Source: Sipunculus nudus
Lineage: Eukaryota; Annelida; Sipuncula; Golfingiida; Sipunculidae
Direction of reading: 5' to 3'
Assembly (NCBI GenBank): GCA_026874595.1
Contig: CM049307.1
Span: forward strand, 38,172,862-38,236,861
DNA length: 64,000 nt
A model generated the notes under the pieces. It saw only the letters and a program-made list of their open reading frames with translations, was not told where the DNA came from and did no database searches. The position numbers and the translations under genes are program-made. Each line of letters opens with the position of its first letter. Within the stretch, counting starts at the first letter, position 1. Shown here piece after piece: positions 9,461-63,169 of this stretch.

Positions 9461-11190
9461 CTAGACATTTCTTGGCACCGCAGGTGCCAGAGTATCCCCA
9501 GACATAGTAGGGCCCCCCCCCCCCCCCTTAAGAATAGGCCCCTATTTTTAGCAGCATATACTGACACTTGGCTAGCAATTATTGTTTCTTCCATCTATCA
9601 ATCCACAATCTTTTTGAAGATGTTGGTCCTATGACCTTTATCTTTTTAAAGATGTGTCCTGTGACCTTGACCTTTGACCTCATGACCCCAAAATCAATTC
9701 GGGTCTTGCTTTTCCAATGGGACATATACAAGTCAAGTTTGAAATCTATACATCAATAAAAGCAGGAATTATTATCCAGAAACTAATTTTTGGACAGATG
9801 GCTCCTGTGACCTTCACCTTTGACCTTGTGACCTCAAAATTGATAGGGTTCTTCCTCTCTTGGCAGGTGAACTATATGTGCAAGATGAAAGATCTGAGAT
9901 GAAATGTTTGGCTGAAAATGCATCCACATCTTTTTAAAGATGTGTCCTGTGACCTTGACCTTTGACCTCATGACCCCAAAATCAATTCGGGTCTTGCTTT
10001 TCCGATGGGTCATATACAAGTCAAGTTTGAAATCCATACATGAATAAAAGCAGGAATTATTCAGAAACTAATTTTTGGACAGATGGCTCCTGTGACCTTC
10101 GCCTTTGACCTTGTGACCTCAAAATTGATAGGGGTTTTCCACTCTTGGCAGGTGAAATATATGTGCAAGATGAAAGATCTGAGATGAATTGTTTGGCTGA
10201 AAATGCATCCAATACCTTTTTAAAGATGTTTCCTGGGACCTTGACCTTTGACCTCATGACCCCAAAATCAATTCGGGTCTTGCTTTTCCAATGGGACATA
10301 TATAAGTCAAGTTTGAAATCAATACATCCAGAAACTAATTTTTGAACAGATAGCTCCTGTGGCCTTGACCTTTAACCTTGTGACCCCAAAATTGATATGG
10401 ATCATCCACTATTGGCAAGTGAGCTATATATTCAAGATGGAAGACCTGGGATGAAAGTTTGGCTTAAAATGCATGGCTTAAAATGCATCCACAGTATCTT
10501 TTAAGATGCGAGTCCAGTGACCTTGACCTTTGACCTAATGACCCTAGAACCTATAGGGTTCTTACTTTAGTGGTGGGCCATACATAAGTCACGTTTGAAA
10601 TCCGTATGGCTATCAACACTGGAGATATCATAAGAGGTGTGTGATTTTCACCAAATATGGACACATTAAAGGTCAAGGACACTCTCATGGTTAAGGTCAT
10701 GAACCAAATGTAAATAGACCTCATCCCATAACCCATCTCTCTACATATGCATAATATGAAAAAAATCTGTCCATTAGTTTTTTACTTATAATGCTTACAG
10801 TACTGTTAAGTGGCAATTATGGGGGTATTGAAAGGCGCAAAAACAAGAAAAGGTTAATAGGTGGCGCCACCAGTTTCTGGTATATCACAAGGCTATTCAA
10901 GATATTCGGCCACCTTGATTTTTGGACCAGTCCATGCGAGCTTACTTGAGATATTTAAGAATCTGTCTTATTTTCAGCAAAAATGGACCTATTCAAGGTC
11001 AAGGTCACTCTCCTAGCATATGTCATGACCCCATTTTAAATAGGCTTCGTCCCCTTACCTATATCTATTCAAATGTAAAGTTTGAAAAAGATCAGTGAAA
11101 TATTTTTTGAGTTATCCCGCTCACAAGGTTTTTCTGCGGCGGCGTGACCGTCATGAAACCATAGTATCCCGACTTTGTCTGGGGATACAA
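9461..11190 (-). mobile_element. family B: non-autonomous Helentron-like element
   Basis: Reading the minus strand: TT then GTATCCCCAGAC, a short spacer, and GTCGGGATAC (5' hairpin, 11163-11188); a CCGCCGC stretch; several tandem units of ~270 bp in 9590-10560; a second GTCTGGGGATAC (9488-9503 region); a stem-loop GGCACC-TGC-GGTGCC (9474-9488); AAGAAATGT; CTAG; then TTTT. This layout, with subterminal inverted repeats, 3' stem-loop and T|T target, is that of Helentron-associated non-autonomous elements. No Rep/helicase frame inside. Confidence 0.65.
9590..10560. repeat. tandem units with AGGTCA-type half-site clusters
   Basis: Each unit has TGACCTTGACCTTTGACCT or a one- to two-base variant: 9662-9680, 9950-9968, 10236-10254 (first half-site changed) and 10518-10536. 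Between them are shorter variants (TTCACCTTTGACCTTGTGACC near 9812, TTCGCCTTTGACC near 10097). The unit repeat length is about 280-290 bp. Confidence 0.8.
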
Positions 11191-12619
11191 TAACATGCAG
11201 TTACTAAAACTTACTTTGTAATACATACCAATGTTCCAAATTACCTAGATGCAATGTGAGAAAAGAACCAGGGTCCCACAGATTTTCTATGAAAACCTTC
11301 ATACATTTCTTTAACAAGGGACCCATGGGTCACAGCGCTCAGCTGAAGTTTGAAATTTTAGCAAATGCAAAACATGCAAAATATTCTTTTGTAATTTTTG
11401 TCATATATATAAGCATATAAGAAGCTAAGAGGATAGGGGCCCTCCTACTTAGTCATAGTAAAGTTCTAAATATATGATTGCAAAACTAATACTCTGACAA
11501 GACTGTCATGAAGAAAAACAGTATATTTAAAGTTTTGAGATACTTCGATGCATATGAAAAATTTACAGATGGATAGGCAAGGTGACAGAATGGACTGATA
11601 CCTTTATTTCACTTTCAGGGGAGTAATGCATTCAAGTTTATATTAAAATACCTATTTTATTTCAGCATATCCACTTTTTTCATTAATAGTTTTTATTAGA
11701 TTCATTTTTTTTTTATTTACAAGTTTTGTATATTTGTTTGAAAAAAATCTGAAAATATATTTAAAAATATCAGAAATCTAAGTTGCAATCATTATTTTAT
11801 CCATAGTTTACCTCATTTTGGGTCATATTATGCATACACATATATTTTATAATTTTTAAATCTCAAATTTTTAAACTGAATTTAAAAGAAAATAATGCCA
11901 CAACATGGCATCTTCAAGATTATTCCTTGAATCACTATCAAAAAGTTTTGTACATTAGAGTGTTCAGTACATGCTTAATTTTATTCAATGAAATAACAGA
12001 TTCAGTAAATTCGATAAAATAAAAACATCTGTTCAAATAAAGTATACACACTGTTGGTTGAATGAGGGACACACAATATCATTGTGCTAATTACTATCTC
12101 AGCTATAATTTATTACTGGAATTAATATTTAATTGTACGCCTGGTGAAGTTTTTACACTTCTGAAGTAAGGAATTCCTTATCTGATGAACATCCACATTT
12201 TCATAGCAATACACCACCTTGTGGACACAATTAAATGTGCACTTTAATCATTGTAACCCTGGTGATACAAAACAAATCTAAAATGTAGCATAGCCTAGAA
12301 TAAGACAGAACCACATACAGAAAATTATAACATTCATCTAGTTTCTATCAGGGGGGGGGAAGGGGGGGGGGGGAGTGCAGGGCAGAGGTGAAGCCTGCTA
12401 GTAGTGGCCAAGCTGAGCCAAGGCAAGCTGCCTGGAGCAGGTTACCTAGCAGTTACACAGGTGAAAGCTGTACATCTAGTTGTGCTTGATGTAAACAACA
12501 CTTGTCATGGTGTGTGAAACTTGAATAAAAGCTACTCTTTTAAATCAATTCCTTTGAAATTTCAGATTTTATAAGATTAAATCCTTATGTATATATGCTG
12601 TGAAAATTAAATCAACAGT

Positions 12620-13211
12620 GCTTACAGGGAAAAAACGTGCCGTGGCCAAAGTTTGACATATTTAAGGTATTGATTTTTATTTATGCTAATAACTAAAAAT
12701 ATTTGCAAAATCAAGGTCTAATTTTGGGTAAACAATTGAATCTTGATTAAATAAAGTAATATCCCAGAAGAAAAAATCTCCAGCTTCAGCAATTCTCATG
12801 TTAAGTGAGTAATTTCCTGATATTTTAAAATTGCATTATGTTTAGACCCATAACATCAAAACAATAGGCAATACTGTTCTAATTTTTGGTATGTACATAG
12901 AAAATGTATAAAAGAATAAGCATACTAAATATGATCAAAAAAAGATCAGTGGTTTTGATATTAGGCAGCCTTGAACTGTAACAATCGCTTTTTAATGGAA
13001 AACTGAGGTTTTTCCTTGATTAGATAATATCTCAAAGGAACCAAGTCCTAATGACCCAATTTTCTGTATGGTAGGAGATTTTGGGGACATCTAACTGTAT
13101 GCAAAACTTTGGATTTGTAGGTCTAACTGTTTCAAAACGTGCCCTGTTAACAGACGGAGAGCCGGACGACGGACCACTACTATAGCTCAGATGACCTACA
13201 GTAAAGCTGGG
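12620..13211 (-). repeat. second copy of the 4.1-4.9 kb repeat
   Basis: Same order of blocks as 4205-4871, ending in a decayed hairpin (TATAGCTCAGATGACC at 13181). Confidence 0.6.
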
Positions 13212-14726
13212 CCAACAATTGATACCTTGTGTTTATTAACTTTATTTGATTATTTCCATTTAGATTTATACAAAGCATGAACTTTCATGAGTGCAAAAAT
13301 TCCATACACGTGATCCTTTTTATATTTCAAATTATTCTTTCAGAATCTGTCCAGATTCACTCAGTGAAAAAATGTTCCAAAATTGTTAGTCCAGAGTGCA
13401 GTAAATTAGATAATAAAAGGTGATTTATTTGACAGTGGGATCCTTTGATTGATACCTATATTCCCAATCTTTATAAAAGTAATGGTCCAGTAAAAGTACA
13501 ATGAATAGTATGTAGGCCTGTATTTAGACCTGCCAAATTTATGCATGTACACAAACAATTTTGATTGATAATGGTAAAAGGTCACAATTAATCAGCATTT
13601 GGTGATTTCATATACAATGTACATGAAAACTATATTAACACCTTTTGATTGACCTGAAGTCTGAACACATTCCCCCACAACTCCTGGTTCAACATTCTGT
13701 ATAAATGATTACATTGTGATGGAAATCATATAATAATTTTTGGTCAACCTGAAAACATCCATCCACAACTCCTTTTTCAAAATTCTGGGTTAAATATTGA
13801 GATTCCACTTAGCACTTGTGTTTTATTCAATCGTTATTCCCAGCTAGGGATTTAAGGTCTATTACTGACTCTGAACCTTAACTTTATGTATATATGCAGT
13901 CAACAGAACATCTCATTTCTGAATACTTCAAATTGTGTCACTGAACATATATTTAGTTTCAGGTGGAAGGAATGAAATCAGGGTCTCTTTCAGGAGATAT
14001 GAATAACCTTTTAAATTTTAAACAGTAAATTTACTCTTACAATATGAATATATAAACACTTTGTTAAGGCAGATTGGCTAAGTTGTATGTTCATTTAATT
14101 CAAATATTAAATTTATTGTAAATTATTTAACTGACACAGCTGATGATAAAAGAATACTTATGTTATCAAGTTTTACCTGAATTGTAATGTACAAGATCAC
14201 TGCTGGCAATGTTAGTGTTTACCTTGTCTGCTCACATCTCACACCATGAACACTTTACAAAGTGGTATGGCAGTAATAACTAATAAATAAATTGAAATAC
14301 AGACCTCAAGTTGTTTTCATGACTGATAGCTAATCATATAAAATTGTAGATGGAATGTTTATTTGTGCTGTCTTGTATTTTCATCTCTACACAATCTAAA
14401 TATATGAAGTTGTATTCTCCTTCAGCCTTTCAGGACTTGTCAATTACATGTGAATACCCTTGGATTAACAAGAACAGTTTGTGGTACTATGTGGTAACAG
14501 GGCACCCAGCTGAGCAAGTATTAAAATACTGCACTCAAGCACACAGTGGCACCTTGACATAATACTAGGTCACACGATGACCTTGTTTCAACCAATCAGC
14601 ATCGAAAAACTGAAACACACCCACCAATCGATAGCTGCAAGGTGACACAAACCAGCCTGGCTGCAAAATTGCTTACCTGTACAAACACTGAAACCATTTA
14701 TAACTCAACCAAACCAATCACCTCAC

Positions 14727-14963
14727 CTTGTGGACTGACTTTGGGTCTTCTAGCCAGGCATTGTACATTTCCTCCACATACACGGATGAGCTGCCATTGA
14801 GGAAGGATTCCGCATGCACTGCTGATGCATAGAACTTGGCATTGACTGGCCATCTGGCCCGCTGTAGTCGGAGGGCCTGGCCATGGTGCTGCCCCTGGGC
14901 AACTGCCCGGAACCCACGGGCTACACCGTTGCCCTTCGTCACAAACGTCCTAAGTCTGTACAT
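14727..14963 (-). CDS. OGDH: 2-oxoglutarate dehydrogenase E1, first coding exon (partial gene)
   Basis: E1 of the mitochondrial 2-oxoglutarate dehydrogenase complex decarboxylates 2-oxoglutarate in the TCA cycle. Only the first coding exon is here: 79 codons from an ATG at 14963. Residues 1 to about 48 are rich in R, K, A and Q and poor in acids, as expected for a mitochondrial transit peptide. Residues after that contain [18 protein letters not shown] and LEDPKSVHK, which match the conserved N-terminal block of animal OGDH ([29 protein letters not shown] in the human protein as recalled). The exon ends at K79 in phase 0, followed on the minus strand by a donor GTGAGG (14721-14726). The next exon should begin with S/T-W-D and was not found in 1-14720. 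The thiamine-binding and catalytic regions are therefore outside the window. A possible 5'UTR acceptor (CTAG) lies 6 bp before the ATG. OGDHL or a DHTKD1-like paralogue is less likely given this N-terminus. Confidence 0.9.
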
Positions 14964-15800: not shown

Positions 15801-15963
15801 TGTCAATTGACGGCCGGTGTGTGCATGTATAACTGCGGGAGGGGGTTCTGAATCTGAACGTGATGGGGGGGGGGGGGGGGGTTAACGTGGTAGCAGGGCC
15901 AGGTACTTATACCCGTATCTGTACCTAGGTCTTACATGGTATACAGTGCAGAATGCCTGCATG

Positions 15964-16408: not shown

Positions 16409-16474
16409 TCTGCATGTATGCCTTATATACCTGGCTTTCATGAATACCAGGAAACTTGCTTGTACCTGTACATG

Positions 16475-16646: not shown

Positions 16647-17799
16647 ACCTGGAACCAAGTACTGTACCTGGTTTAAGCAAAGTATTCCAGGTACATGTAT
16701 GGTATAGGAAATAGACATCGTGCTTCGTTCACGTACATGTACAGAGCTGTCACCGCTGTTTTGGCAGTCCTACTTTGCATGTTTGCAGCATTTGAAGCTG
16801 AGTGGACAAGCTGGGCAGGTAACATGCTGAACTACCCCCCCCCCCTTTTTTTTATAATAGGGTTGCTGACATGCCCCATGTGGATAAATCAGGCCTGCCA
16901 AAACACTCTTTTTATAATTTAAAAGAGTCGCTCTTTAATTTTGTGGATTTACTGAAAATGACGCTATAATTACTCTTTATTCATGCCCCCTTTTTTCAGA
17001 AGCACTTTAACTTTTTTTGTGAAAAAAAAAAATGACATATATATTATTCCGCCCATGCTTTAAGTTAAACAGTCCAGTAGGTACAAGAATGGCACACTAG
17101 CTTCGTAATTTTTATGCACCCGTGCAAATGTCCAGCATGTGTTACAACATGTGAAAAATGCCCTTATCTTCATGCAGGGGGATATGCAATGTATATTTCT
17201 GACTTTTACAGCTATGTATACACATACTTAGTATGCAAAGCACATATTTATTCAGTTTGTAATATATCATTATTTGGAATTGCATGCCGCTAATTTTACT
17301 CTTTTTTCACTTTTATTTCAAAGAGGTCTCTCTTTATAACCAGAGCATTTACTCTTCTCCCGGTCATTTATCTTTGGCAGACCTGTACTTGTTGTCCCGT
17401 ATATAAACACAGAACTCTGGTGAAGATTAAATGAAGAACTGAAGAAAATACGTAGGCATATTATATTACTGAAAATATAAATTAACCGAGCAGAACTCTC
17501 CGCAACTGCCAAAAGAGCAAAATTTCCCATGTTTAAGACCAAAACTGTCCTCTGTTAAATTTAATATCAAATTCAGATACTCATGCAGAATACATGATTC
17601 TCAAATATCTTAAATAACCATGTTTATTGTTACTTCTGTTTTTTTTTATATAGAGAAAAGACATATATTTGAACACATGAATGAAAGTTTGAATATCTGT
17701 AATTAAAAATAATTCTAAAAATTACCAGCTTTATATATGTTCACTGTTACTAAAGACCATCATACATAAGGTATATATATATATATGTGTTGTATATTT

Positions 17800-18120
17800 G
17801 TATCCGCCAAAACAGTTTTGCTGATACTATGTTTTCAGTTGCACGCTGCCGCCGCATAGGTTTCCGGAGAACTCCTCCGTAACCACTGGGTATAGAATTT
17901 TTTATCTGCCTTTATTTTGCAATTGTATACAATTGGATAACTTTCTGGATTTCGTGGCAGGTGGCGCACCTACATACACATTTCGGCTACAGACATCCAT
18001 GCTTATATGCAACACGCCTCTCTCTATTTCCCCTTGCCACTCAATCCATGCCTCACTTTATTCGTCTCGCTCTGGTTTCGGCGGATACACATAGTCGCTT
18101 GTCGACAACCCGTGGTCTAG
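17800..18120 (+). mobile_element. family A short copy
   Basis: Begins TT|GTATCCGCCAAAACA, loops back as GTTTTGCTGATAC, passes a CGCCGCCGC-like stretch and TCCGGAGAACTCCTCCGTAAC, then ends GGCGGATACAC, stem-loop TAGTCGCTTGTCGACAA, CCGTGGT, CTAG, then TTTTT. The complete layout in only 321 bp with one partial inner unit. Confidence 0.6.
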
Positions 18121-18714
18121 TTTTTCTTGAAGACGGGGGAGATTATATGCTTTTAAACAGTATATTTTGCCATTCTATTATAACTTATAATATGACATTT
18201 AGATGAAATATATTCAAGTATTATTCATTCAAATGTCTTTTAAATGTACCTGCATGTACCTATATAAATATCTAGATGTACTTTGTGAAATACCTGGACC
18301 TGTATACCTGTATCATACTCCACAAAACATCTATACCTGGGTCAGTTAAATTCCACCTAAAGAAGTTGTCATGGAAGCTTGAAGTTGAACAATCAATGTG
18401 ACATGTCCATTAGTCTTGGTAGAGACTTTTTAAGAATTCATGATATCCTGAATATACACAAGTCATACACGGATACCTATAGGCCTAGCTCTTACATATA
18501 CATGTATGATGTGCATCGTTCGATCTTTTTGCTGAATCTACAATTAAGTGCATACATAGTCAATACGTGACACTCCGTTCACAGCAGCAGAGCGAGCGAA
18601 TCGGAATAAAGAGTCTTGTGACGATAAATTTTGATCATTAAGGCCCAAGGCTAATTTTAAAAGACCATTCATGTTTAATGTGTACAAGGTATTTGTGAAG
18701 TCATGAAACCTACA

Positions 18715-20032
18715 CCAATTATCGGGTCATATGTGAACTGGTGCCTAACCAATTGGCCTTGACCTCTGACCTTTCCTCTCTGCCCAGCGTCCGTTTGTGC
18801 GTCTGTTTCCACATATCTCGGGAACCGTTTGACCGATCAGGAAAAAGAATTTACACAAATGTAGCCCTTGGATAGCTTTATAACATACACAAAAATGGTG
18901 GCGCCACCTGCTCCATGTTTGCACAGTGTCTATCTGTTCATCTGCCTTGGGATAAAATCACTCATATCTCTGCAGTGGTTGGACTAATTCACCTGAAATT
19001 GGGCATGCGTATACATCCTGGATAGCTTTTTTGATTTTATGACAGGTGGCGCCACCAACATTCACGTTCACGCTGCAGACATCCAAGCTCAAATCTCGGG
19101 AACTGTTTGACCAATCAGGAAAATTTTTTTTTTACACAAATGTAGCCCTTGGATAGCTTTATAATGTACCGAAAAATGGTGGCGCCACCTGCAGCCATTT
19201 TTGCACAGCGTCCACCTGTTTGTCTGCCTTGGGTTAAAATCACTCATATCTCTGCAGTGGTTTGACCAAATTACCTGAAATTCGGCATGCGTATACATCC
19301 CGCATAGCTTTCTTGATTTTATGACAGGTGGCGCCACCTACATTTACGTTCACGCTGTAGACATCCATGCTCATATCTCCAGACTCGTTCGACCAATCAG
19401 GAAAAACACAAATGTAGCCCTTTGATAGCTTTATAACATACACAAAAATGGTGGCGCCACCTGCAGCCATTTTTGCACAGTGTCCATCTGTTTGTCTGCC
19501 TTAGATTAAAATCACTCATATCTCTGCAGTTGTTTGACCAAATTACCTGTAATACGGCATGCGTATACATCCCGCATAGCTTTCTTGATTTTATGACAGG
19601 TGGCGCCAGCTTCATTCACGTTGACTCTGTAGACATTAATGCTTATATCTCCGGACTCGTTTGACCAATCAGGAAAAAAAAATTACACAAATGTAGCCCT
19701 TTGATAGCTTAATAACACACAAAAATGGTGGCGCCACCTGCAGCAATTTTTGCACAGCGTCCATCTGTTTGTCTGCTGTGGGATAAAATCAATCATATCT
19801 CTGCAGTGGTTTGACTTTTCCACCTGAAATTTTGCATGTGCATCTTGGATAGTTTCTCGTTCAAATAATAGGTGGCACCACCTACAATCATGTTTACGTG
19901 GCAGACATCCATTCTAATATGTAACACATGTAACTTTATGTCCCCTTGCCACTCAATCCATGCCTCACTTCACCCGTCCTACTCTGATTTTGGCGGATAC
20001 ACGTAGTCGCTTGTCGACTACCCGTATTCTAG
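18715..20032 (+). mobile_element. family A long copy with about four tandem units, 5' end missing
   Basis: Starts within the body (TCGGGTCATATGTGAACTGG) and ends with TGGCGGATAC, a perfect 7-bp stem GTAGTCG/CGACTAC around CTTGT, CCGTATT, CTAG, TTT. About four units of ~277 bp lie between, each with two GGTGGCGCCACC sites. It sits 600 bp after the short copy with the same orientation, so the two may be parts of one insertion. Confidence 0.65.
18897..19882. repeat. ~277-bp tandem array with GGTGGCGCCACC palindromes
   Basis: Palindrome copies start at 18897, 19045, 19178, 19327, 19450, 19599 (one change), 19727 and 19871 (one change). Every second copy is 272-281 bp apart and shares flanking sequence, so the unit carries two palindromes in distinct contexts. 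Confidence 0.85.
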
Positions 20033-21025: not shown

Positions 21026-22274
21026 TTTTTTTAAAAGTTCTTGCTTGGTCAATAAAAACCGAGGTTCCGGTCTACCATACACCATGCAGGTGCCTTTTTG
21101 CGGGAATGGGGACAAGGTGACATGATACCCTCACGTTTTAGGGGCGAAGTATATTTGTCCCCACAATTTTAAGGACATAAGATGCATAATTTCCAACATA
21201 GGAATTTCGAGATACCGATAATTCCATCATCCATATAGTTTATGATGTTTCTTCACTGAACTTTATACATCAATAATCGCTCAGTTCAGCATTCGAATTG
21301 AGAAAATTTCGAATGGTGCATGCCAATTTAAGTAATCATGGAAACGTTACCCGATATGGTACGTTGTTGAATGTTGAGTTATGAAAAATGACAAACAGTT
21401 AAGAAAACTGGACAAAAATTACTAACGTTTAACCAACATGTACATCCCATTAATATTTATACTCTGCGAGGTGGACTTTACACCCTCTTTGTCATAAGAG
21501 AGGTTTTTGCCGGGGAAGGGGTTCTATCTGTACCATGCACTGTTGATGCCCCCTAACATTTTCTATATATAAGGCCCAGAATTGCATGGGCGAAGTACTC
21601 TATGTATTGACCTATATTGAAATATTCAAGTTTTTCCTTCTTCTTTATATATATATTTATGTTTGTACCTGTATATGTTTCATCTGATATATATATATAT
21701 ATATATAGGGCTATGTATCAGCTTTAACAATTCGACACAGAAATTTGAAATTCATTAATTATTCAAATTCACTCTGTTAAAATCTAAAAAATATGGATTT
21801 TCTCCTTTATTTCTAGGCCGATTTTGATTTTTTTTTTTGTTATTTTAATATTGAACCAACAAATAAGCCATCTGAGATTCCATTCATGACACATGAGCAA
21901 TATATATATTAATCTATGTACGTCATCAACGTTTTGGTTCAATATTCTTACTGCTGACTCGATGACACTTAAATTACCTCAAAGGGCGTGCATGTTCCGC
22001 TATATTCAGTATATAGTGCATATATAGTATTAAAGAATAGATTGAATAATTCGTAAGGAATCCACTAACCTGAACGTCCAAAGTTAAGCATAAATTTGAC
22101 GTGTGCTTAACCATTTGGATGGAAAATGGACAAATATGCTTTTTTCTCCTATTTCTAAAGGTTGATGAATAATGAAAGTAGTACTCTAGTTTTTTTTCTT
22201 AGGAATTCGAATTTTGCCGTTTCAAGTGTTATATTCCTTTTTGTAAGCATTCTTAAAAACCTAAAGCGGTAATT

Positions 22275-23509
22275 GTATCCCCCAAAACAGAGTTTTGCGG
22301 ATACTAGTTTTCAGCCCACCGCCGTCGCCGCGTAGGTGTCCGGAGAATTCCTCCGTAACTGCTGGGCGGAATTTTACGAAACCCGGGATTATGTTCGGGT
22401 CATATGTGAACTGCCGGTCCCGATTTTGTTTTGACCTCTGACCTTTCCTCTGCGCTCTACGTCCATCTGTGCGTCTGTGTTCACACATAAACCCCCATAT
22501 CTCTGGACTCGTTTGACCGATCGGGCTGAACATTTGCACGTTTATAAATCTTAGATAGGTTTTCGATTTTTTGTGACAGGTGGCGCCACCTACCCCCCTC
22601 CCCGTTTATGTATATCTCTGCAGTGGCAGGACTTATTCTCCTGAAATTTTGCACGTTCATACATCTTGGATAGATTTTTCATTGATATGACAGGTGGCTC
22701 CACCTACCTATGCGTTCGCAGTGCAGACATCCATGCTGATATCTCAGGACTCGTTTGACCGATTGGGCTGAAATTTTACATGTTTAAACATCTTGGATAG
22801 TTTTTTCCATTTTTTGTGACAGGTGGCGCCACCTACCCCCCCCCCCCCCCCGTTTACGCTCCAGACATTCATGCTAATCTCAGGGCTTGTTTGACGGATC
22901 AGCCTGAAATTTTGCATATGTATAGGTCTAACATAGCCCTTTTACAAATCCAAATCCGGTGGCGCCACCTGCAACTGTTTTTGCACAGCGTCCATCTGTT
23001 TGTCTGCCTTGGGATAAAATCATGCATATCTCTGCAGTGTTGGACTTATTCTCATGAAATTTTGCACGTGTATAAGGCTCTTTATCATACCAAAAACTGG
23101 TGGTGCCACCTGCAAAAGTTTTTGCACAATGTCCATCTGTCTGTCTGCCTTAGGATAGAATCATGCATATCTCTGCAGTGCAATGACTTATCTATCTGAA
23201 ATTTGGCATGAAAAGATATCTTGGATAGAGTTCTCTGAGAAGTTGGCAGGTGGCGCCACCTTCCATGCTAATATGCTATACTGATTTTGGCAAATACACG
23301 TTGTCGCTTGTCGACTAGCCGAATTTTTTGTTATTCAAGTTTTTCAGAGGCTCTAATATATTCACATTGTCAACCTCCAGAACACCATGTCTGGTCACTA
23401 CAGCCTTGCCTGGGTAACTTTATTCATCTTTCATGTAATATGTCATCTACCTCACAAGGTTTTCCCATTACCTCTATATCCTATCGCTTGTCGACTACCC
23501 GTATTCTAG
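22275..23509 (+). mobile_element. family A copy with intact 5' hairpin and doubled 3' end
   Basis: 5' hairpin GTATCC(C)CCAAAACAGAG then TTTTGCGGATAC, CGCCGTCGCCGCG, and CGGAGAATTCCTCCGTAAC as in the short copy. Inner units hold GGTGGCGCCACC or variants near 22580, 22825, 22961 and 23249. A first 3' terminus lies at 23290-23320 (decayed after TCGACTAG) and a second, better one at 23485-23509 (CGCTTGTCGACTACCCGTAT then TCTAG). Confidence 0.65.
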
Positions 23510-39731: not shown

Positions 39732-42700
39732 CATTAAACTCTCTTAACGAATAAAATACTCAGTATATAGTCCATTTGCACAGAGCAAATTTTACATGTA
39801 TGGATACCGACCAGTATGCCAAAACTCAAATAGTTTTTTTTTAGCTCAGCTGACTGATAGGTATAGGTATGGCCCTCTGTCCGTCGCCCGTCCGGCCGTC
39901 GTTAGCAAGGCACAAATCGTAATCGCTGACCCTAGAAGCTTCTAAGTTAAGATCCGTTGAGGTCAATAAAAAATCTCCTTTGAAAACTGATAAAAAGGTC
40001 ACTGTGGCCTATATCCTTCTAGATTTTGGTCTTGTAAGTACCCCCTAGAATTATTGAAATTTGATGCAAACCCTCCAGTATCTTGATAATTTATGCTTGG
40101 ATTGCTATGAATCTTGCGTTGAATATTGGTAAAGTAAGAACCGTATCGATTTTGGGGTCTTAAGGGCAAAGGTCAAGGTCCCATTTCATTATAACGAATG
40201 TGGGTTCATTTTAAGCCAAACTTTTCATCACAAAACCTCCATCTTCCAGATATTGCTCACCTGCCAACAGGAAAAGATTCTTTTCGATTTTGGGGTCACA
40301 GGATCCAAGATCACGGTCTCAAGGCACATCCATTCACAAATTAGTTAATTGACATTAACTCTTGGTTTGATATGCAGATTGGCTTTAAACGTGATTTATT
40401 AATGACCCACCACTAAAGTTATAATCATTTTTGGTTTCGGGGTCACAAGGTCAAAGGTGAAGGTCAAAGAACATACATCGTTAAAAGATTGTGGATGCAT
40501 TGTAAATCAAACTTTTCATCCAAAGCCTTCCATCTTGCAAACATGGCTTACCTGCCTAGAGTGGAAGAAATCTGTAGTTTCTGAGGTTCCCACGTCGGAG
40601 GTCAAGGCCACTGGAGCCACTTTTTATGATAATCTAAATGCTGTAGGTTCAAGGGAAACAAGTTCTCAGATTTTTTGGTCACACGGTCAAGGGATAAGGT
40701 CAAAGGACCCACATTTTTAAAAATGCTCATAAAAATATCATTGTAGACAAATTCACCTGGGCGTCGAGACCCATTGGTCCCTTTTAAAAGGTCTATGTCT
40801 ATAGATAATATTTTGGTATGATACCTGATCCAGAGTGGTAGTTTATTCATATTTATCCGCTATTGAATGCATTGAAGTGGCATGAAATTTGAAACATTCA
40901 GATACGTCGATTTTTTATCAGTTTAATGGCAATAACTTCATTAATACAGAAGATATTATTGTAAATTTAGTCCGCCTTTGGAATGTTAATGGTGTTTCAT
41001 ATTTTTATCGGGCAACATTTACTCAGCATTTAAAATTTATTTCAATTGGGTAACTTTTGGCCGCATCATATTTCATGATCTCAGAAGCACGTGGCAGTAC
41101 TAGTCTATATTCATTTTATTATTTACAGTGAAATATGTCCTTATATATCTCGTTTGTTAGATATAGTTTCGTCAAATATGATTATATATGTACATCATAC
41201 GGAGAAAATCTTATCGTTTATTTCAAATTATATTAATTTATGATCTGATGTGTTGGTAACGTTTGGATGCTCACAGAGACAACATTTAAAGAGATGCCAT
41301 CAATAAACCAAATAATCTTTAAATGTTTATATAGCAATTATATTTTATAGATGATATCTGTGTTTTTATTAATTTGTGTCAGAATGTCATCAATGATTTT
41401 TTTTTTATTTATAATCTATTCCTAATATGAGTCATCAATACTGTTGCTTGTTGGCGTTTAATTTCACCTCATAACATATTTATTCAATTTTGTATTGATT
41501 AAATTAAAAGTTATAGTCACGATATATGTATATATGTACATTTAATTTATTTGCATTGGTGACTTTCATATACCCATTAATATATTTTTATTTAGAGAGT
41601 GCACAGTAGTGCATGTGGTGTTGTAAATGAAATGTTTATTGTATATGAAGTAAAAGTCTACCACTGTGATATATGTACGGGTACCGGTCACTGTTCAAAG
41701 CTTTTTAGAACAGGAGGGTTAAGAAGGTCCGCCACTAACCACGGAAGCATTTGTACATACAATATATGGTCGTATGCTACAAAGAGTAAACAAACTTTTT
41801 TTATGTCTCCCGCCGCCCCGAAGTGGTGTGAACGCAGCAATTTGATAACAAATTGACATACAGTCACCATTTTCGGACTATTGATATATAACGGGCCAGG
41901 TCAAATCAAAATGTTTGTTGACATTGATGCATTTTTCGGACACAGAGGCGATCTAGCTAAATTTATGTTGGCGCTCTAACTTAGAATTACTTTGGGACTC
42001 AGGCACCATTTATATACATCATTGTTGTTCCACTTGATAGGTTAGGACAAGCTCGAATATGGATGGCCTTGGTGTATCTTCCAAAGTCACAAAAGATATC
42101 TGGCTAAAGATATGGGAGAGCAATAACTAATATGAAATTTTCAGGTGGTATATTCTGCTTTATCAATAAACAATTCAGATTCCCCCGTTGTTACTGGTTA
42201 CTGTTTAAACAATGTTTATAACTGATACTTCATTCATTAGTCCATTCAAGAAGAGTCTAATGATATCCCCTCAGGCCTTCAACACTTTTTTTGGCAGTAT
42301 CTTAATACTTGAGAGATTTGGACAAACCAGATCTGTTCCACATATTAACTTTTCTTGGTATAATTATAACAAGATAATGAGTCGCATGTTAAGATGATAA
42401 TGATAGGTCTGTCATGATACAGGTCATTACAAACATGAAAATGACAAATAATATACGGGACAGAAACAATAGATGATGCTGATGATACTTCATGGTACCC
42501 CGTCTCGTTAATATTTAGAAGATATAAATACAATATTATAAAATTATTATAATACATCTTCTTTATAAAAAAAATGAATGTGTGTCCATGACTATGCTTA
42601 ATCAAAAATGGATCTTCAATTAATGGAGGTACACAAACATCAAAGAGCATAAAAAATCCCGTGTTCCCGCCAAATTCAACATGTCAGTGGTTAGAAGCAA

Positions 42701-43187: not shown

Positions 43188-46100
43188 GTAAACTTTGCCG
43201 TTATGTCAAGGCGTGTTTCTGAATGGCTAATGATTGTTATTAATGTATTTCATCCCGGATTCCATTCATTCATTTACTGAAATAAAGCTACGCTACTCAT
43301 GAAAATAAATCTTAATTTATTTCTGCCGAATCTGTATGCCACGGATCTGATAATCCTACATAATAATACCATAGTTTGATTCACCAGTAGGAGTCAAATA
43401 TTTGTCAAATATTATCACAAAAATTTGACACTAAAGTTGGTGGTGGACGAAAGACTTAATATGAGATATAAAAATCATAACAAAATCCAACATTTATATT
43501 TTGCATTCCCACGGTCCTTCTGAACTGTCACGGTCAACCTGCATGTTGGTCTTATAATTATAGTATTCAGCCAGAAACATGAGGTGGTTTTAAAAGTATT
43601 AGTCAAAGTGGTATGTACACATGCTATACAGTTACAGAAAATGATATAAACACTAACTGCGTTTGCCTTTGCAAAACCTGCGGGAGCCCCAGAGCTTTGT
43701 TTTGGAGCAGTCTGTATATAAACCAAGCAGTTAGTAGGCAGCGGTAAACCAGCCAAATGTTGGTACATGGTCTGGTCATAACAGTCTGTTGGTAACTTGC
43801 ATAACTGCCCCTTTAGCTTCGTGTCCAGCGATGTCACGGTAAGTGGAGTTATGTCTGTTTAAGTATCAAAATAGAGTGTTAGGAGATTAATGCAGAATTG
43901 ACAATTCGGACATTTCGTGTCTTTTTCTGACCAGGCACATGGACTCAAGGTGAAGTATGTTTTGGAAACTGCGCCGTACGTTGCCCCTTTGTTCTGTTGT
44001 AAATAATGTACGTCATGCAGTCTGCCAAATCAGTGGCAATGATAAAATAATATATTGAGATATACAGTAAGGTACAGTCTGTTATTATTCAAAAGAAAAT
44101 TCCGAAAATTAAGTAACCCGATTGCTTGCCATTTATATTTTAATTGCTATACTTAACCGGAATAGTCCCTTATAATATTTAACTATTTTTAATCTAAAAT
44201 GCATGCATGCATATTGTATCCGCAAAAACAGAGTTTTGCGGACACAAGGTTTTCATGCGGGTTCCGCCGCCGCCGTCTTTTCCGAAGAACTCCTCTGAGA
44301 CCCTTGGATCGATCTTTCCGAAACCAAGCATATTTAATGGCCAACATGTTAACTGGGGCGTAACAAAGACTGGTGCATAACCTAGCTGTAATCCTTTTCA
44401 AGAGTGATTCAATATATTGGTCTGAAATTTTGCATGTAAATCCATCTTGGTGAGTTTTTTTGGTAAACCAGATAGGTGGCGCCACCTAACTCCCTGTTTT
44501 CGTAGAATACATTGATGCCCTTTCCTCAGGAGTGGTGTGACATATTGGTCTGGAATCATTCATGTCCGTAGATCTTGTACACCTCAATCTCTTACTAAAG
44601 ACTTGTGGTGCCATCTGCAACGTTTTCGCGTGGCGTCCTTCCGTGCGTTTGCTTTGGTTGAATATTACTCATATCTCAGGAGTGGTTCAATGTATTGGTC
44701 TTAAATTTGGTATGTCCATCCATCCTGGAGAATGTTCTCGTAGACCAGACAGATGGCGGCACCTACCCTCCCGTTATCGTAGAATACAATGTACATTGTT
44801 GCCTTTTTCTCAGAAGTGTCTGCCGTATTGGCCTGAAATTGAGCATGTCCATAGATCTGGAATACTTCCATCTCGTACTCAAGACTGGTGGCGCCATCTG
44901 CAATCATTTTTATGTGACGAGCATCTGTGCGTTCGCTTTGGCTGAAAATCGCTCATATATTAGGAGTAGGTGAATGTATCAGCCTGAAATTTGGTATGTT
45001 TATCCGTCTTGGATAGCTTTGTTGTAGACCAGACAGGGGACGCCAGCTGCCGTTCCGTTTTTATAGAATACATTGATGCAATTTTTCTCAGTATGTTCAT
45101 GTGGTTGCTGTATTCACCTTAAATTTGGACTGCTTGAACCACTTACATTCAATTTCATCTTGCATCCACTTATAGATCTGTTTTTGGTGAAAATTACGTA
45201 TATATACGAGGACTTTAATTTCACCTCTGATGCCACATATTTGGAGTCATGTATTGTCAGGGACATATTCAATGCCTCTTTTATTTAGCGGATACATCTG
45301 GTCGTTTGAGGACTGATCGCTTTCAAGTTTTCAAGCGGATTTTGTCTCGTGTTTTCCTATCATGCATTGATAGGTAGCACTTATGACACATAACGGTCAA
45401 TAAGTAATGAAATAACCCGTTTTTATGTTAATTCAAATTCCTCACCTTAAATGAAAACCGGAGCATGATGTATCTATCTACCATAGTCATACACTTGGTC
45501 GTGGCACCTTCTCATGCATTCATCATCTTCTAACTTTTACTCTTTATGTTACTTTAGCATGTATCTCTTGGTCACCTTCTCTCATGGTGTATACAAGTAT
45601 TGGTTGCTTTTCTTGAAAGAAGCTCTCATTCCTTCATAAAAGTCTTTCTTTCCGCCATTTGATCATTGAACTCCTTCAAGAATATAAGAATACAGCTGAT
45701 AAACGTGATATACTTAATTTTCTGGACGCCCAATGCATGGTTATGACCTTGCTTCCTGTGCCTCTTTGAAAAGCTTATACACGTCATGACTTTCTTTACT
45801 TTTTTCAAAGGCTATATATGTTACGGTGGCTTTCATTCATAACGTATGGTGCACATGGCAACTCTTAGTATTTTTGTTTATCCTGATCAACATTATGTCC
45901 TAACCACACTCTGACTATTCGTTTAAAGGTTCATTCACATTTTGAATAATAATATGTGTACTATCTCTCACCATTGAATACAAAATTCAACTAGCAGAAC
46001 CATATGGGCACATGGACTTACTATCGACTTCCACCTGTTTTATACGTTGATATGGTTCTGTGTGTAAGCGAAAACAGGGTACCCGTGTCTGTGTACAACA

Positions 46101-48454: not shown

Positions 48455-49189
48455 GCCTCGATTACTGGACGTTAGGAGATACTGGAAAAATTTAATACAC
48501 GTATTTGCTGCTATATTATGTTTTCCGTAAATTTAATCAGTATATGCTTGACAACCCTGGTGAATATATATATTAAAACTGGATATGGTTGTCGTAATTC
48601 CCAGTTACACCTGGACAGGTCACAGAAAAATGGTGGCGACTGTCTGCGACGGGGAATATTGAACAGCCATGTTAATACGCCATGTTGCATGCGCTTAGCT
48701 TTTTTTATGCTGAAGAAGCATGCATATACCCTTCTTATTGAATATTTATCCCAAACTACCTTATACATTTTGTATTTCTATGTTGGAATAAAATTACAAT
48801 ATAATACCGTGTAAAACGTCTTCTTTAGTTCGACAAGACCTTAATTACGGTTCAACATATACCTGCCATGTGAACGGGTGACAGGGTACCATATTTATAC
48901 TGTTAAGCAACGGATAAAACTTACACGCATAACTGATACCTACATGACACAGATGGAAAGTCGACAAGCGACGTGTACCGTGGAATCACCTGAGGTTGGG
49001 AATTCTCCTGTTGTGGAATCCTACGGAATTTCTGGAATAAGAGATGCTAAGGTGTCCCAAACTGCAATTCCACCGAGTTTTGTCTTTTGATTCCTATAAA
49101 CTGATATTGAACAAGCTACAATACTGCCCTACAATTTTCAGTGGATACTGGTAATTAAGAAGAAAGAGATATGTGATTTTCACTCAAAA

Positions 49190-49450
49190 AGGACGCATGG
49201 ACGCAATACAAAAGAATTGTAGATGGCGCCACCAGTCTTATGCACAAGATAAAGCTATCCAAGAATAATCGACACGCAAAATTCAAGGCCAACACATCAA
49301 ACCACTCCTGGATATATAAGCCTGCGTGGAGGCCATGCAAAAGGTGACAGGGGGCGCTACTAGTCTTGTGTACATATAAAACTATCCAGGATCTATGGAC
49401 ACCAACTTTCAGGCCAATCTAACAACACGCCTGAGATAGGAGCATGGTCC
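49190..49450 (-). repeat. family A fragment
   Basis: Contains GATGGCGCCACCAGTC (about 49213) and a related GGGGGCGCTACTAGTC (about 49349) with family A spacing. A shred of the 3' stem-loop (GTCGACAAGCGACGTGTACC) lies upstream at 48960. Confidence 0.45.
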
Positions 49451-49972
49451 TATGGACCAACGATAAGCAAAATCATGTGGGGGCTTTAAATGATCCCTCT
49501 TGGTAATAAATCATCTATTTGACTTTTATAAAAAATAGGCCAAAAAAACCTGGATATCAACGCATACAGGTTGCTTGTTTTGTTTATATTAACGTGTTTA
49601 TAATATGTGGTGCCACAATAATCAAGTCAAATTCAACATGGGCATCTGGTGGAAAGTCAGATAAGCCAGAGCTTTCAAAATGGCGTTTTGCAACAAATGA
49701 CCTTCCTACCTTGGCATATATGCAACCTACCACCTGAGGTTATATGGTTTTCCAGTTGTCAACACTGCTGTGTTTACAAACACATTGTTGATAAACAAGT
49801 TCATACATCCTTCACGAAGGCCTTATGAGAATTTTCTACAATCAAAATTACCCTTAAATCATAAATATATACACAAAGGAAGCCAGAGATCACATAAATT
49901 CTTTTTCAAATGCTAGGTGAATGGGCACCTTTAAGAAATGATGGCCAATCTCAGTATAAGCATGTGAATATG

Positions 49973-50032: not shown

Positions 50033-50037
<5 letters not shown>

Positions 50038-57414: not shown

Positions 57415-57486
<72 letters not shown>

Positions 57487-57806: not shown

Positions 57807-58711
57807 CTGAAAGGAGTTATTGACACCTATTTAATTTAAACAGAACTTGAAATTAAATTACCAATTCAAAAATATTAGTACATTAATGTCAAATTATCTC
57901 AACCTTGCTCAAATTTTCACAAATGAAAAGTGGAAGATAAATAAACTTAAAGCCAGGAATTGATTAATGTTAAAATACAAGCTAAATATTGTATTACATT
58001 GATAATGCATAAAACATAAACAACTGAGCATGCCACATATGATAAAAGGGTATTTATTTTAATTTCAAGTGCAAAGCTGTTCGTAATATTTTAACTTGTT
58101 TATTACATTATTTTAATATTTTCTTTTACTTGTGAAATACATGTACATATTATATCTTATTCAAATGAACCATACTATATGAAATATGTTTCAGGTAAAA
58201 GCTTTAGAAAGATTACATATTGTAAGATAACAAGCAAAAAACAGCCTTATCTGTAATACAGGTATATCTGTTCCTTGCTTTAACCACTAGTTTGAACATT
58301 TCAAATATGTGTGCTGATCAGAATGCCATTTACCCTAAATAAATATTAACATAGACAAAAGATTGGCTACAGTAAGATGCAAATGTTGAGAGGAGAACCA
58401 AAGGCAGAGGCTGGCACCAGTGGTTATTCCAGACAGGTTTCATAAGTAGATACTAAGTTAGGTGCATGGGTTAATTCTCATCAAGATAGCAAGCAACACC
58501 AGATGGACCCTGCATTTCAAGTTCTAACTATAATGTATTATAACTCCATGGTCTAACAATAATTTATTTTTGATGTTTGAGTAATAAGGGAAATCGCCAA
58601 TGCAGTCTCTCGTGTAAATGGAGGAGAAAAACCACTGGCTGGCACAGCCAGAAGCCCATTTATGCAGGCAAGTGTGATTAAGCCAGATGGTCATTAGCAC
58701 TGTCTTATTCG

Positions 58712-59000
58712 GGCTGTGTGTAAAACTCGGAAGCTGGAAGCCGGAAGTCAGAAGCCAAGGATTTTTTTCATAAAAAAGTGCTAAAACATGCACAAATTAC
58801 CTCTAGATCAACACCATTTTAATTTCTTTTGATAGAATAAAGTTTGTTCTATCATTCCATGAAGAATCATACTTATCCATTCCGTAATATGAAAGTTATA
58901 GACAATTTTGTGCTAGGAAGCCATCTCAGAAGCCACTCAGAAGTGCCGGGATGCGGTCCAAATGTGTAAAACTCGGAAGTCACGGAGACGCACTGGTCAA
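58712..59000 (+). repeat. left terminal inverted repeat
   Basis: Shares with the right arm CCGGAAGT, AAGCCAAGGATTTTT, TGAAGAATCATA, TGAAAGTTATAGA, GGAAGCCATCTC and TCCAAATGTGTAAAACTCGG. The outer and inner parts of the arm also share GTGTAAAACTCGGAAG with each other. Confidence 0.8.
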
Positions 59001-60791
59001 CATGTGGTCAGTTTAAGCCACATGGCAAATGCAATTTCATTGCCTGCATATATTTAAAGTGCTTATGATTGTGCTTGTAATGAGTATATAATACAATACA
59101 TTGTACATACTAAAATATGATAAAAGAAATCCGTATACGACTTTAAAAATACATTTATAAATTACGATATCATTAAATATTAAAACAGTTTTAATATATT
59201 TCTCTTACGTTGAGCAAATATCCAATATATTTAATATTATCATAAAATATTGGAAATTCAATCTATCTTAACAGGATATGCTGGAACTGCAACAAACACA
59301 TATGTACCAAATAAAATGTAAATTAAATGTGTTTTATAACGTGAGAATTCTATGATCTTTTTTTTTTTTTAAAATTAAGATATATCGTAGTAAGGGATAC
59401 AACAGAACAGGTAATATATTACATACTTATATATGTGTGATTATAAAATCTAATATGTTTTTATGTTTAAGCATAAAGTTTGTTTTAAACAAAAAAAAAT
59501 ATAAAATATTTTCAACTCTTTCTTTCATACTAATTCAACCATGATATTTATTTTCTATTTATAACACTCTTGATATTGTTACAACATTATTATAATAATT
59601 TAACTTCAAATAAATTGATATTTCAGAAAATTTGAAAATATTTATTTAATTCATTCCACTCTCAGATGTAATGTGCGTAATAAGGGCATCTAAAACAGAA
59701 TGTGTTCCTAGCTTCAATTAAGGAACTGCAAGGAGTGACGATTACAATGATCTCGATAAAGAAATTCCTATTTTGTGTTAGGAGGAGATCGTAGAATGTC
59801 AAGTCTTAGATAAATAATTTTATAAATAGGATCTTATTTACACATAAGACATTCAAGTAAAAGTCTGTATGTCTGGAGGTTCATAGTGTCTTAAAGAAGC
59901 TACGGATATAGGCATTTTTATCCAACCGGTTGCTTAGCTAAGATTCATACCTTGAATTTTCATGCATAAAAAATGTTGACGTCATGCAATAATGAAACGA
60001 ATCCTTTCCGATGATTTTTCGACAATTACCCATCAAATCAATTACTGTGGAAAATCTGGTTGGATATTTACCGCCAAGATAAAAATTTCAATGATAAATA
60101 TCAATTATTCCCATTCTTCTTTGATAAAATAGCAAGTAAACCTCTTTATAAAAAAATCCTTTTCATGCACATGAATCTTATCTATATACTCACAATCTGT
60201 ATTTGATCCTTATATATTTACCCTTTTCGTAATTTAATTTATCACAAAATAAATCAAGTTAACAGGAAGCTTATTCTTAGGCCTGCATGGTAATCACTGA
60301 TTTTCAAACATTTACTGAATAATTTTTGCCAAGCTAAATGTTTTGTTGGTGTTTTATTGATTTGTTGTTGAATTTTTTTCTGTTGACGTGTTTTACAATA
60401 TGTATTTAAAAAGTATTAATGTTTGTGCCGTCTGTTTTTTTTATAAATTTCAGAACATTAATTTTCCGAACATTGTACATAACAGCATAAAAATACCGAG
60501 GAAATATCAAATCGTTCTGCAAAAACAGAAACAATTTTATTTTATGAACGTTAAATGTTACAATCGGCATCATATCTATTTACACATGTACTGTGTATTT
60601 ATTTCTGTCAAGGTTTTGTTTATGTTTGTTGCTTGCCGGAATCAAAGATTTCGGCAAGCATATTACTCAGTTGCGTATGTCTGTTTGTTTGTCTGCACTC
60701 TCCTGGCCACAATTTTGCCACAATCACCTTGAAACTTACAGGGATGATGAAAAACATAATTTCTAGGTGCCCTATTGTTTTTGGTTAAAAT

Positions 60792-60816
60792 AGGTCAAAG
60801 GTCAAGGTCAAGGTCA
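60792..60816 (+). promoter_or_regulatory. cluster of four AGGTCA half-sites
   Basis: AGGTCA, one A, then three AGGTCA directly abutting: a perfect DR1 followed by two DR0 arrangements. Matches the nuclear-receptor half-site consensus; function is not shown. Confidence 0.6.
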
Positions 60817-61149
60817 TCAAAACTTCTCAAAACGGTTTTTTCTTCATATCTTTGTGACTATTAGTTGTATCTACTTCAACAATAGTATATTTTAATCGTC
60901 ATTCCAAGGCCTGTCATCTGGTGTGTAGCTGACTCAAATTTGCCGTAACCATGGTTACAAATTTTTGGGGAAAAGTCATGATATTCGAAAATAAAGGGTC
61001 TTATTTTTGTAACTTTGTCAATTTTAAAGCTAGAGTGATCTAGTTTTTTGCATCAGGAAGCATTCAACTAGTACTACAAGATTTTATTACAAGTCTTGCA
61101 GTATCTCGTAAAATATCTCGTGAATAGAGATATTTCGAGATTTAATTCA

Positions 61150-62300
61150 TCTTACGCCAAAGGCCACATTATTGCAGGAATCTTTTTGAAACTGACATAT
61201 TATAAGTCCTACACTAGTATCTCGAAATTGTTTTTTCATTTTTTGAATAGGGCCGCTAGGGGGCGCTGGATGCGAACCTCCCGAACATATCATATTTTGG
61301 CCATATCTAAAAAATTATAAGCCTCAATTACATAACTATAGCTTATTTTCTTCCTCTGAGTTTTTTCCATAACCTAGTGTAGTCATCTGGTCACAATTTT
61401 GTGACACTTTGTCAGTGTGTCTGTCTGTTTGTCAGTTGTCCTCAAATTCGCCTTCTTGCTCTTGCGTCTAACATATAGCATTCTACAGGCCACAGTTTTG
61501 AAAGAATTCTTTTGAAACTATTACATCTTAAGTCTTACACTAATATCTCGAAACCAATTGTTCATTTTCCGGATATGGCCGCTAGGGGGCGCTGAACTCG
61601 AACCTCTCCCAACATATCATGCTTTGGCAATATCTCCAAAACTATAAACCTCAGTTACATAAACTGTAGCTTTTTTCTTCCTTTGAGTCTTCTCCATAAC
61701 CTGGATTAGTCATCTGGACTCAATCTTGAGTCACTTTGTCAGTGTTTCGTCTGTTTGTCAGTTGTCCTCAAATTCGCCTGCTTAATTGTTGGCTCTTGCG
61801 TCTCACATATAGCATTCTATAGGCCATAGTTTTGACGGAATCCTTTTGAAACTATTACATCTTATGTCTTACTTTAATATCTAGAAATAAATTTTTCATT
61901 TTCTGGATATGGCCACTAGTGGGCGCTGCACACGACCCTCACACACATACCATTGTATTGGCCATATCTCTACAACAAAAGCCTCTGTTATACAAACTAT
62001 AGCTTATTTTCTTCCTTTGAGTCTTCTCCATAACCTGATTAAGGCATCTGGTTTCAATCTTCTGTCACTTTGTCAGTGTGTCCATCTGTTTGACCGTTAT
62101 CCTCAAAGTCGCCTGCTTGCTGGTTCTTACGCCTTACATATAGCATTCTACAGGCCACAGCTTTGACGGAATCCTTTTAAAACTGGGACATCTCATGTCA
62201 TACACTAATAATACGAAACGCATTTGTCGTCTTCGGAATATGTCTGCTAGAGGGCGCTACAGTCGAGCCTCCCAAGTATATCATTAATTCGCCATACCTC
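61150..62300. repeat. ~330-bp tandem array in family C
   Basis: Unit marks: a (T)GGCCGCTAGGGGGCGCTG-type site at 61250, 61576, 61910 and 62241 (steps 326, 334, 331); AAACTATAGCTTATTTTCTT or a near copy; TCTTCTCCATAACCT; CACTTTGTCAGTGTG and CTGTTTGTCAGTTGTCCTC. Confidence 0.9.
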
Positions 62301-63169
62301 CAAAACTATAAATCTAAATTACATAAATTATAACTCATTTTCTTCCTTTGAATCTTCTCAATCACTAGGTAATGTCATCTGGTGTCAATCTTGTCTCACA
62401 AAGTTACTTTGTCTGTCTGTTCGTCTTTTGTTGTCAGTTTTGTCTGCTTGCCTGTTCTTTTGTTTCATATGTCATTCTACGGGCCACATATTCTCAGCAA
62501 TGTCCCTGAGAGTCATTCCATTAATAGAAAACCGACAATATGTTTGTCTGTCCGTCTGTGTTTCACTTCCGATTTCCGGCAAGCGTTCGACCTATGGTCG
62601 TCTAGTTTTTCTTTTTAAAGTTGTCCAATACATCTGATGAATCATTATCAAACAATTCAATGTGATATATTATGCATATGATGCAACATTTTAAAACTTG
62701 AATTGAAATGGGTTTCATTTGACAGCATGAACATATCGGGGAAATATCACATTTTGAATTTGTTAAATGTGCATTCTGATCATGAAATATAAAATAAATT
62801 TTGGAATCAATTAAATATATTACATAATAAATTTTGTAAGTCTAAGAGATACATAATCCTGATGAAATTTTTTATCAATGGAACATGTGAAGTTTGGTCA
62901 ATTTAAACATGAAACATAAAACATTTTATCAAAAAAACCTTTAGAAACATTTCCAGGACATTGTCGTGTTTCTGTCAAATTTTAATTCTATTTATCATTT
63001 TAATTAATCAATTGATACTATGTTGTTTTACAAAATGAAAAAAAATATGACGACAAAATATTATTGTAAGAAAACAGCATCATGAATGTAACACAACAGA
63101 ATTGAATTATAAAAAAAAATATGTCATCTGGAAGATATTGAAAATGCTTGACATGCACGTATATGCTGA

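Follow-up and report, generated by a model that had tools for sequence, protein, structure and literature searches.

Putative Helentron-associated elements with tandem arrays, common ends and differing bodies in a 64-kb stretch of the Sipunculus nudus genome

What are the tandem-repeat elements that recur, with similar ends, along a 64,000-nucleotide stretch of the genome of the sipunculan Sipunculus nudus (GenBank assembly GCA_026874595.1, contig CM049307.1, positions 38,172,862 to 38,236,861, forward strand; hereafter the window)? A preliminary description had named three families, A, B and C, and given them one layout: a 5' hairpin built of an arm and its inverted copy, internal tandem units, a further copy of the arm close to the 3' end, a short stem-loop, CTAG and a run of T's. 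It had placed them among the non-autonomous elements associated with Helentrons. We conclude, with a probability of about 0.88, that A, B and C, the further copies labelled E and F, and copies with an end type that we call H are HINEs, non-coding and non-autonomous Helentron elements that carry short satellite-like arrays. The element limits, as we drew them, cover 23% of the window, whose base composition is 33-42% GC per 4 kb.

Scanning for a perfect stem ahead of CTAG located 3' ends with one to eight bases between stem and CTAG, followed by T's, at 9464 (A, minus strand), 20029 (copy B2) and 62602 (C). The stem of B2 is GTAGTCG/CGACTAC; those of A and C are listed in Table 1. Each of the three 3' arms has an inverted match upstream: a sequence starting TGTATCCCCAGAC at 11189-11172 for A, TATTTGTATCCGCCAAAAC at 17795-17813 for B, which is the 5' end of copy B1, and TGCTTGCCGGAAT at 60630-60642 for C, whose 3' copy has two mismatches in 13 bases. 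With its partner, the 5' arm folds as a hairpin of -12.8 kcal/mol in A, -6.4 in B1, -10.8 in B3, -13.9 in E and -21.6 in C, as calculated with RNA energy parameters and without a shuffled control. When CTAGT, a stem of at least 5, a 3' arm, an inverted 5' arm and an adjacent partner were demanded jointly, the window gave four matches, against none in 16 and one in 4 of 20 dinucleotide shuffles (mean 0.2). Three of the four are real, that of B2 relying on the 5' arm of B1 since its own 5' end is lost. A, B and C do have the layout described for them. The fourth match (26478, minus strand) is AT-rich, has no GC-bearing arm, is probably due to chance and was rejected as an element end. Copies B1, B3, B4 and E, whose stems or CTAG have decayed, were not recovered by the joint test; they, F and the arrays of A and G type were found by BLAST and by reading the sequence. 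Also set aside were weak stem and CTAG matches at 11013, 12446, 26289, 61377 and 3178, which the joint test did not recover, a supposed 3' end at 22304 (plus strand), which is the 5' hairpin of B3, and a palindrome near 61120, considered as the 5' hairpin of C until the arm was located at 60630.

Subterminal inverted repeats (subTIRs) of about 11-15 bp are present in A, B1 and C, and in B3 and E with at most three mismatches to the B pattern. The 3' palindrome is perfect in A, B2 and C and partly decayed in B1, B3, B4 and E, and tandem arrays occupy 9640-10474 (A), 18812-19815 (B), 44508-45036 (E) and 61161-62399 (C). With the borders placed as we drew them, the 5' border is T|T in all five copies concerned (A, B1, B3, E and C). 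Where CTAG is retained (A, B1, B2, B4 and C) at least TTT follows, and inspection by eye of the 14-bp flanks inside the window revealed no target duplication, in line with the insertion between T's proposed before. The co-occurrence of these features is, however, less strict than had been claimed: B2 is without its 5' end, E shows CAAG where CTAG would be expected, no 3' partner of the H ends lies in the window, and the 3' end of B3 is decayed and accompanied by a second 3' segment. This segment (23484-23509) lies 149 bp beyond the decayed one, is identical to that of B2 at 26 of 26 bases, and perhaps reflects read-through or an older copy. C is flanked by another dispersed repeat, an inverted pair at 58763-59011 and 63166-63414 (249 bp, 75% complementary).

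The families had been said to share almost no sequence, which proved wrong for A, B and E. The initial ~45 bp of the 5' module are common to these three, as is GCCGCCGC, and their modules align from base 1 (TTGTATCC.C...GATACTA.G.TTTCA...GCCGCCGC, with mismatches in E), so that A and B are not unrelated. At the other end, the 3' arm is G(G/C)GGATAC in five of six copies (A, B1, B2, B4 and E) and GCAAATAC in B3, and in A, B1-B4 and E it stands, by our count, 26-28 bases from CTAG or its decayed form. On the 5' side A, B1, B3 and E have the same end; on the 3' side this holds for A, B1-B4 and E. Pairwise comparison of A with B2, B3, B4 and E gave as common part a short stretch around a block, GGTGGCGCCACC (with B2, 43 bp at 81%); A and F have another stretch in common (34 bp at 88%), and A and C a 20-bp GGTCA repeat. 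C differs in both ends and body.

The tandem units had been described as 270-330 bp long. That figure stands for C, with units of 326-334 bp and no half-period, whereas in A and in B/E the units of 270-290 bp are pairs of diverged half-units of ~140 bp. In self-comparison the half-unit offset is 142-146 for A and 141 for B3, whereas the signal is weak for E and absent for B2 and C; in B2, B3, B4 and E half-units are also delimited by the spacing of the block, 114-150 bp.

A third end type, H, consists of the 5' hairpin AGCTCAGCTGAC-n5-GTCATCTGAGCT, or a near variant, after a run of T's. It occurs at five places: 2523, 4870 and 6802 (all minus strand), a remnant at 13213 (minus) and 39843 (plus) with one arm lost. 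The partner of the 12-bp H arm is kept in three of the five copies; one arm is lost or decayed in the other two. With up to two mismatches allowed, the arm matches at 10 positions against 2.4 expected, a number reached in none of 100 shuffles, and 8 of these 10 matches belong to the five H ends. Some copies continue with GTCC-type sequence, and the bodies that follow differ: G units ahead of A units, only A units, B units without anything between, or, in H1 and H2, a body of their own. The A-type and G-type body at the start of the window spans 1-2350 and may, with its H end, form a single element (G/Aw). No 3' partner end of the H copies was found within the window. Since H ends precede differing bodies, B4 can be read as a B body that has a B-type CTAG end but an H-type 5' end, and so as an apparent chimera, although nested or truncated insertion could have produced it instead. 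Either recombination or the acquisition of new 5' ends would explain why differing bodies stand behind one end type. Near H1, a duplicated stretch starting ACCAGACTGGTACA was seen by eye on the minus strand, at 3090-3230 and 4130-4216.

Table 1. Elements, arrays and sequence blocks in the window (positions count from its first base; limits as drawn by us).
Feature	Position	Strand	Description
A (HINE)	9461..11189	-	5' subTIR GTATCCCCAGAC at ~11188; 3' subTIR GTCTGGGGATAC; stem TGGCACC/GGTGCCA; CTAG 9464-9461
A units	9640-10474	-	tandem, ~285 bp, two half-units each
B1	17798..18120	+	short B copy, both ends present (hairpin TTGTATCCGCCAAAAC... at 5', GGCGGATACACATAGTCG...CTAG at 3')
B2	18690..20032	+	8 successive half-units with GGTGGCGCCACC-type block; 3' end intact; 5' end lost; left limit by eye
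B3	22274..23509	+	6 half-units behind 5' hairpin TGTATCCCCCAAAAC; 3' end (23290-23335) decayed
B4	6244..6806	-	H-type 5' hairpin (6774-6802); B half-units; B-type 3' end with CTAG, stem decayed
E	44215..45331	+	B-related; 5' hairpin TGTATCCGCAAAAAC; 5 half-units; 3' GCGGATAC; decayed stem; CAAG replaces CTAG
F	48940..49490	-	old remnant resembling B/E, with two half-units; 3' CGCTTGTCGAC; limits by eye
C	60630..62605	+	5' hairpin TGCTTGCCGGAAT...; 3' arm TTTCCGGCAAGCG; stem CGACC/GGTCG; CTAG
C units	61150-62471	+	four, 326-334 bp
G/Aw	1..2523	-	5' hairpin of H type at 2497-2523; G units (2085-1245) followed by units of A type; 3' end beyond window
H1	4517..4874	-	5' hairpin AGCTCAGCTGAC/GTCATCTGAGCT; stretch rich in GTCC; body homologous to that of H2; no 3' end found
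H2	12870..13213	-	H-type copy; partner arm 13184-13195 kept; 5' arm decayed
A2	39841..40724	+	H-type 5' arm, partner lost; then A-type units (A-like array 40125-40724); 3' end not found
Block GGTGGCGCCACC, example	19045..19056		conserved block
CTCF-type 15-mer CCGCTAGGGGGCGCT	61253..61267	+	C unit 1; also 61579 (15/15), 61913 and 62244 (14/15)
GGTCA block AGGTCAAAGGTCAAGGTCA	9662..9680	-	occurs in A units and, in C, at 60792

We assign the elements to the HINEs because they combine subterminal inverted arms, a 5' hairpin, a 3' stem-loop, CTAG with T's, tandem arrays, a T at the border and no recognisable coding sequence, and because the joint pattern exceeds shuffled sequence, A, B and E have ends in common, and the H end stands at five places before different bodies. 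The structural hallmarks that a single window can show are present, and the layout is the printed HINE anatomy, in agreement with the class named in the preliminary description. As for coding, none of the 21 listed stop-to-stop open reading frames (ORFs) of at least 110 amino acids matched a Rep-helicase in Pfam, the list excluding shorter fragments and ORFs running off the window ends; the five listed ORFs that overlap B3, E and C are without any Pfam match. Going by published Helentron biology, the Rep/helicase of an autonomous Helentron elsewhere would recognise the 5' arm and hairpin, nick, peel off one strand and halt at the 3' stem-loop and CTAG; the peeled strand would then be pasted between two T's without duplication, and the arrays could grow or shrink by slippage or unequal exchange. 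The proposal that one replication machinery serves several end types remains plausible and is helped by the apparent chimera B4; no Rep-helicase was seen in the listed ORFs to anchor it.

Several points weigh against this assignment. A and C are each represented by one copy with both ends; borders rest on one or few copies, and we drew these borders at a T. Copies B2, B3 and E and those of H type are incomplete. With as many as three mismatches allowed, the C-arm pattern occurs 15 times against 11.7 expected, which is chance level, and copies of it were counted only when exact or with one or two mismatches and in their places. CTAG is not named in the main text on the Pacific oyster elements Cg_HINE (PMC7492417), and its one appearance in the main text of PMC4067079 concerns a proto-Helentron of the oomycete Phytophthora, not HINEs. 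The elements might instead be canonical Helitrons (5' TC, 3' CTRR, A|T target) or the intermediates between Helitrons and Helentrons known from oyster, which we consider improbable. CTAG is indeed a CTRR end, and, as far as the published descriptions go, oyster Helitrons end in CTAG with a 16-20 bp palindrome and have subTIRs in 257 of 751 cases (PMC7992393), while lepidopteran Hel-2 combines a CTAG end, a 3' hairpin, 5' inverted and subterminal inverted repeats and a CTGT microsatellite (PMC4344730). Both, however, start with TC and lie in A/T flanks: the oyster Helitrons have mostly A|T targets (86%; PMC7992393), and for Hel-2, with a consensus of ~250 bp, the text available does not describe such tandem arrays (PMC4344730). 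In the window, the TC start and the A|T target were not found; the 5' ends are T|TG or T|TTG, flanked by T, and the arms, partner arm and arrays suit HINEs. It is scarcely credible that the arrays are ordinary satellite DNA and the stem-loop, CTAG and arms a coincidence. Single features are common, CTAGT occurring 61 times in the window, though this is below the chance mean of 96, and one of the four joint matches is itself probably accidental; a joint pattern found four times against 0.2 per shuffle, and the ends common to A, B1, B3 and E (5') and to A, B1-B4 and E (3'), speak against such a coincidence.

Within the putative HINEs, the half-units of B, E and F carry the block GGTGGCGCCACC, of which the window holds 13 exact copies (12 in B/E copies, one in A at 10860) against none in 100 shuffles. 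Across 25 half-units the 12-bp block has a mean pairwise identity of 0.872, compared with 0.551 for the rest and 0.713 for the best other window of the alignment, and it is conserved despite containing CpG (observed/expected 0.60 in the window). None of 20,000 column permutations, a test that treats columns as independent, reached this conservation. Against this stands that the original 26 sites had been picked at no more than three mismatches to the block itself; one of them (44260, in the 5' module of E) was dropped, leaving 25. Successive sites lie 114-150 bp apart, so no half-unit was skipped inside the arrays of B2, B3, E and B4 (22 of 25 sites); for the three sites of B1 and F the spacing offers no such check. 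Conservation beside the block is lopsided, with 0.92, 0.43 and 0.85 in the three columns after it and 0.78, 0.61 and 0.48 before it, and being mainly one-sided it makes the conserved string of the reverse strand G-Y-AGGTGGCGCC. The sequence AGGTCANAGGTCA occurs nine times, against none in shuffles, always inside elements as drawn. AGRKGGCGCY has 27 matches against 0.19 expected, 26 of them inside elements (our count from positions); these are not independent events, since palindromes count twice and copies are tandem. In a text search of the literature, the string GGTGGCGCCACC turned up in one paper, on a chitinase.

Could such blocks be binding sites of host proteins? SINE B2 seeds CTCF sites in rodents, and HINE arrays might likewise be vehicles for candidate sites of host architectural factors, seeding clustered insulator- or enhancer-like sites by transposition, which, judging from motif resemblance, we hold to be possible but unlikely. 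Nearly every unit or half-unit would then carry a CTCF-type core (CCGCTAGGGGGCGCT in C; in B/E, and once in A, AGGTGGCGCC within a dyad, which we take to be the core of the CTCF motif), and a GGTCA direct-repeat block of nuclear-receptor type would recur in A units and in the 5' parts of B and C. Against what we assume to be the CTCF consensus, CCRSYAGRKGGCRSY, the four C units match at 15, 15, 14 and 14 of 15 positions and B/E at 13 at most. The window has 19 matches of at least 13/15, compared with 2.9 per shuffle (30 shuffles), and eight of at least 14/15, compared with 0.2. One full match outside the elements (CCGGCAGGTGGCGCT, 31082-31096, plus strand) may be a host site and could serve as a useful control. 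In the published record, a CTCF-binding probe contains AGGTGGCGC (PMC6925871), CTCF-like motifs are reported from squid and annelid chromatin (PMC9023564, PMC7854359) and CTCF genes from molluscs (PMC10658182); a further occurrence of AGGTGGCGC, in PMC7883824, is an unrelated rice target and was discarded. No CTCF or nuclear-receptor sites in Helentron repeats appeared among the titles and abstract openings found, in a search that covered few subscription journals.

Several results count against host-factor sites. Of the CTCF-type matches, 6 of the 19 and 4 of the 8 lie outside elements. With the four C units aligned, the CTCF core has rank 4 of 320 when the window is 12 columns wide, a T-rich stretch standing above it, and rank 42 of 317 when it is 15 columns wide. 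For A, with ten half-units of which three come from 1-1060, rank 9 of 135 falls to the GGTCA window and the first rank to ATTTTGGGGTCA. The B block is a palindrome or dyad, unlike most CTCF sites, which are described as non-palindromic (PMC5498337). The 12-bp and GGTCA blocks may rather be boxes of the element or of recombination, either Rep-binding iterons or exchange hot spots resembling CENP-B boxes, a tentative reading to which we give slightly less than even odds. A perfect dyad suits a dimeric binder, and in oyster two conserved segments are common to otherwise dissimilar monomers, whose replacement is discussed there with motifs recognised by transposase-related proteins (PMC7492417). 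Such boxes sit less well with the C block, which differs, is non-palindromic and fits the presumed CTCF consensus at 14-15 of 15, or with the lopsided conservation beside the B block, which runs in the direction of the reverse-strand CTCF motif, the difference being modest. Should CTCF-like or nuclear-receptor proteins bind the blocks, clustered regulatory sites would come from rolling-circle elements in a group, the spiralians, whose 3D genome organisation is poorly known (PMC10658182). Mixed ends and conserved candidate blocks of this kind add a little to the interest of HINEs.

Apart from the elements, the window contains two frames on the plus strand (36703-38889) with partial matches to POT/PTR2 peptide transporters, one above and one below the Pfam cut-off, which are probably exons of one gene; an 83-bp tandem repeat in three copies (37901-38149) lies near them. 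Two exon-like frames at 46171-47936 (plus strand) belong to an ankyrin-repeat protein. Minisatellites occupy 52367-52684 and 53613-53900, their periods being 20 bp and 17/34 bp.

Among the known systems closest to these elements are the oyster elements CvA, CvE and CvG, presumably those that go by the name pearl. These three differ in sequence and have a common structure (PMC11136912). In the insect and mite elements DINE-1/HINE (Drosophila, mite, Culex), the features reported that agree with ours are subTIRs of 12-15 bp, an inverted repeat beside the 5' subTIR (DINE-1), a palindrome near the 3' end, T-rich targets left unmodified and tandem repeats in some copies (PMC4067079). Cg_HINE elements of the Pacific oyster are described as having a 5' subTIR of 11-12 bp with a complementary inverted repeat, a microsatellite, a short tandem array, a 3' subTIR and a palindrome, inserted at T-rich or TT sites without duplication; their families have related flanks with divergent repeats, and some elements have two arrays (PMC7492417). 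Compared by description, the elements of the window equal Cg_HINE in layout, in related flanks with divergent repeats and in conserved segments within dissimilar monomers (PMC7492417). The monomers of oyster are mostly 140-180 bp (PMC7492417), whereas here half-units of ~140 bp, near that size, are paired into units of ~280 bp, and the units of C are ~330 bp. The label 'bivalve-like' would refer to a resemblance of the elements only. HINE anatomy is thus published, and CTAG with a hairpin and subterminal repeats is already in print for oyster; the elements described here extend the known pattern, several HINE families with common ends and swapped bodies, to the genome of S. nudus.

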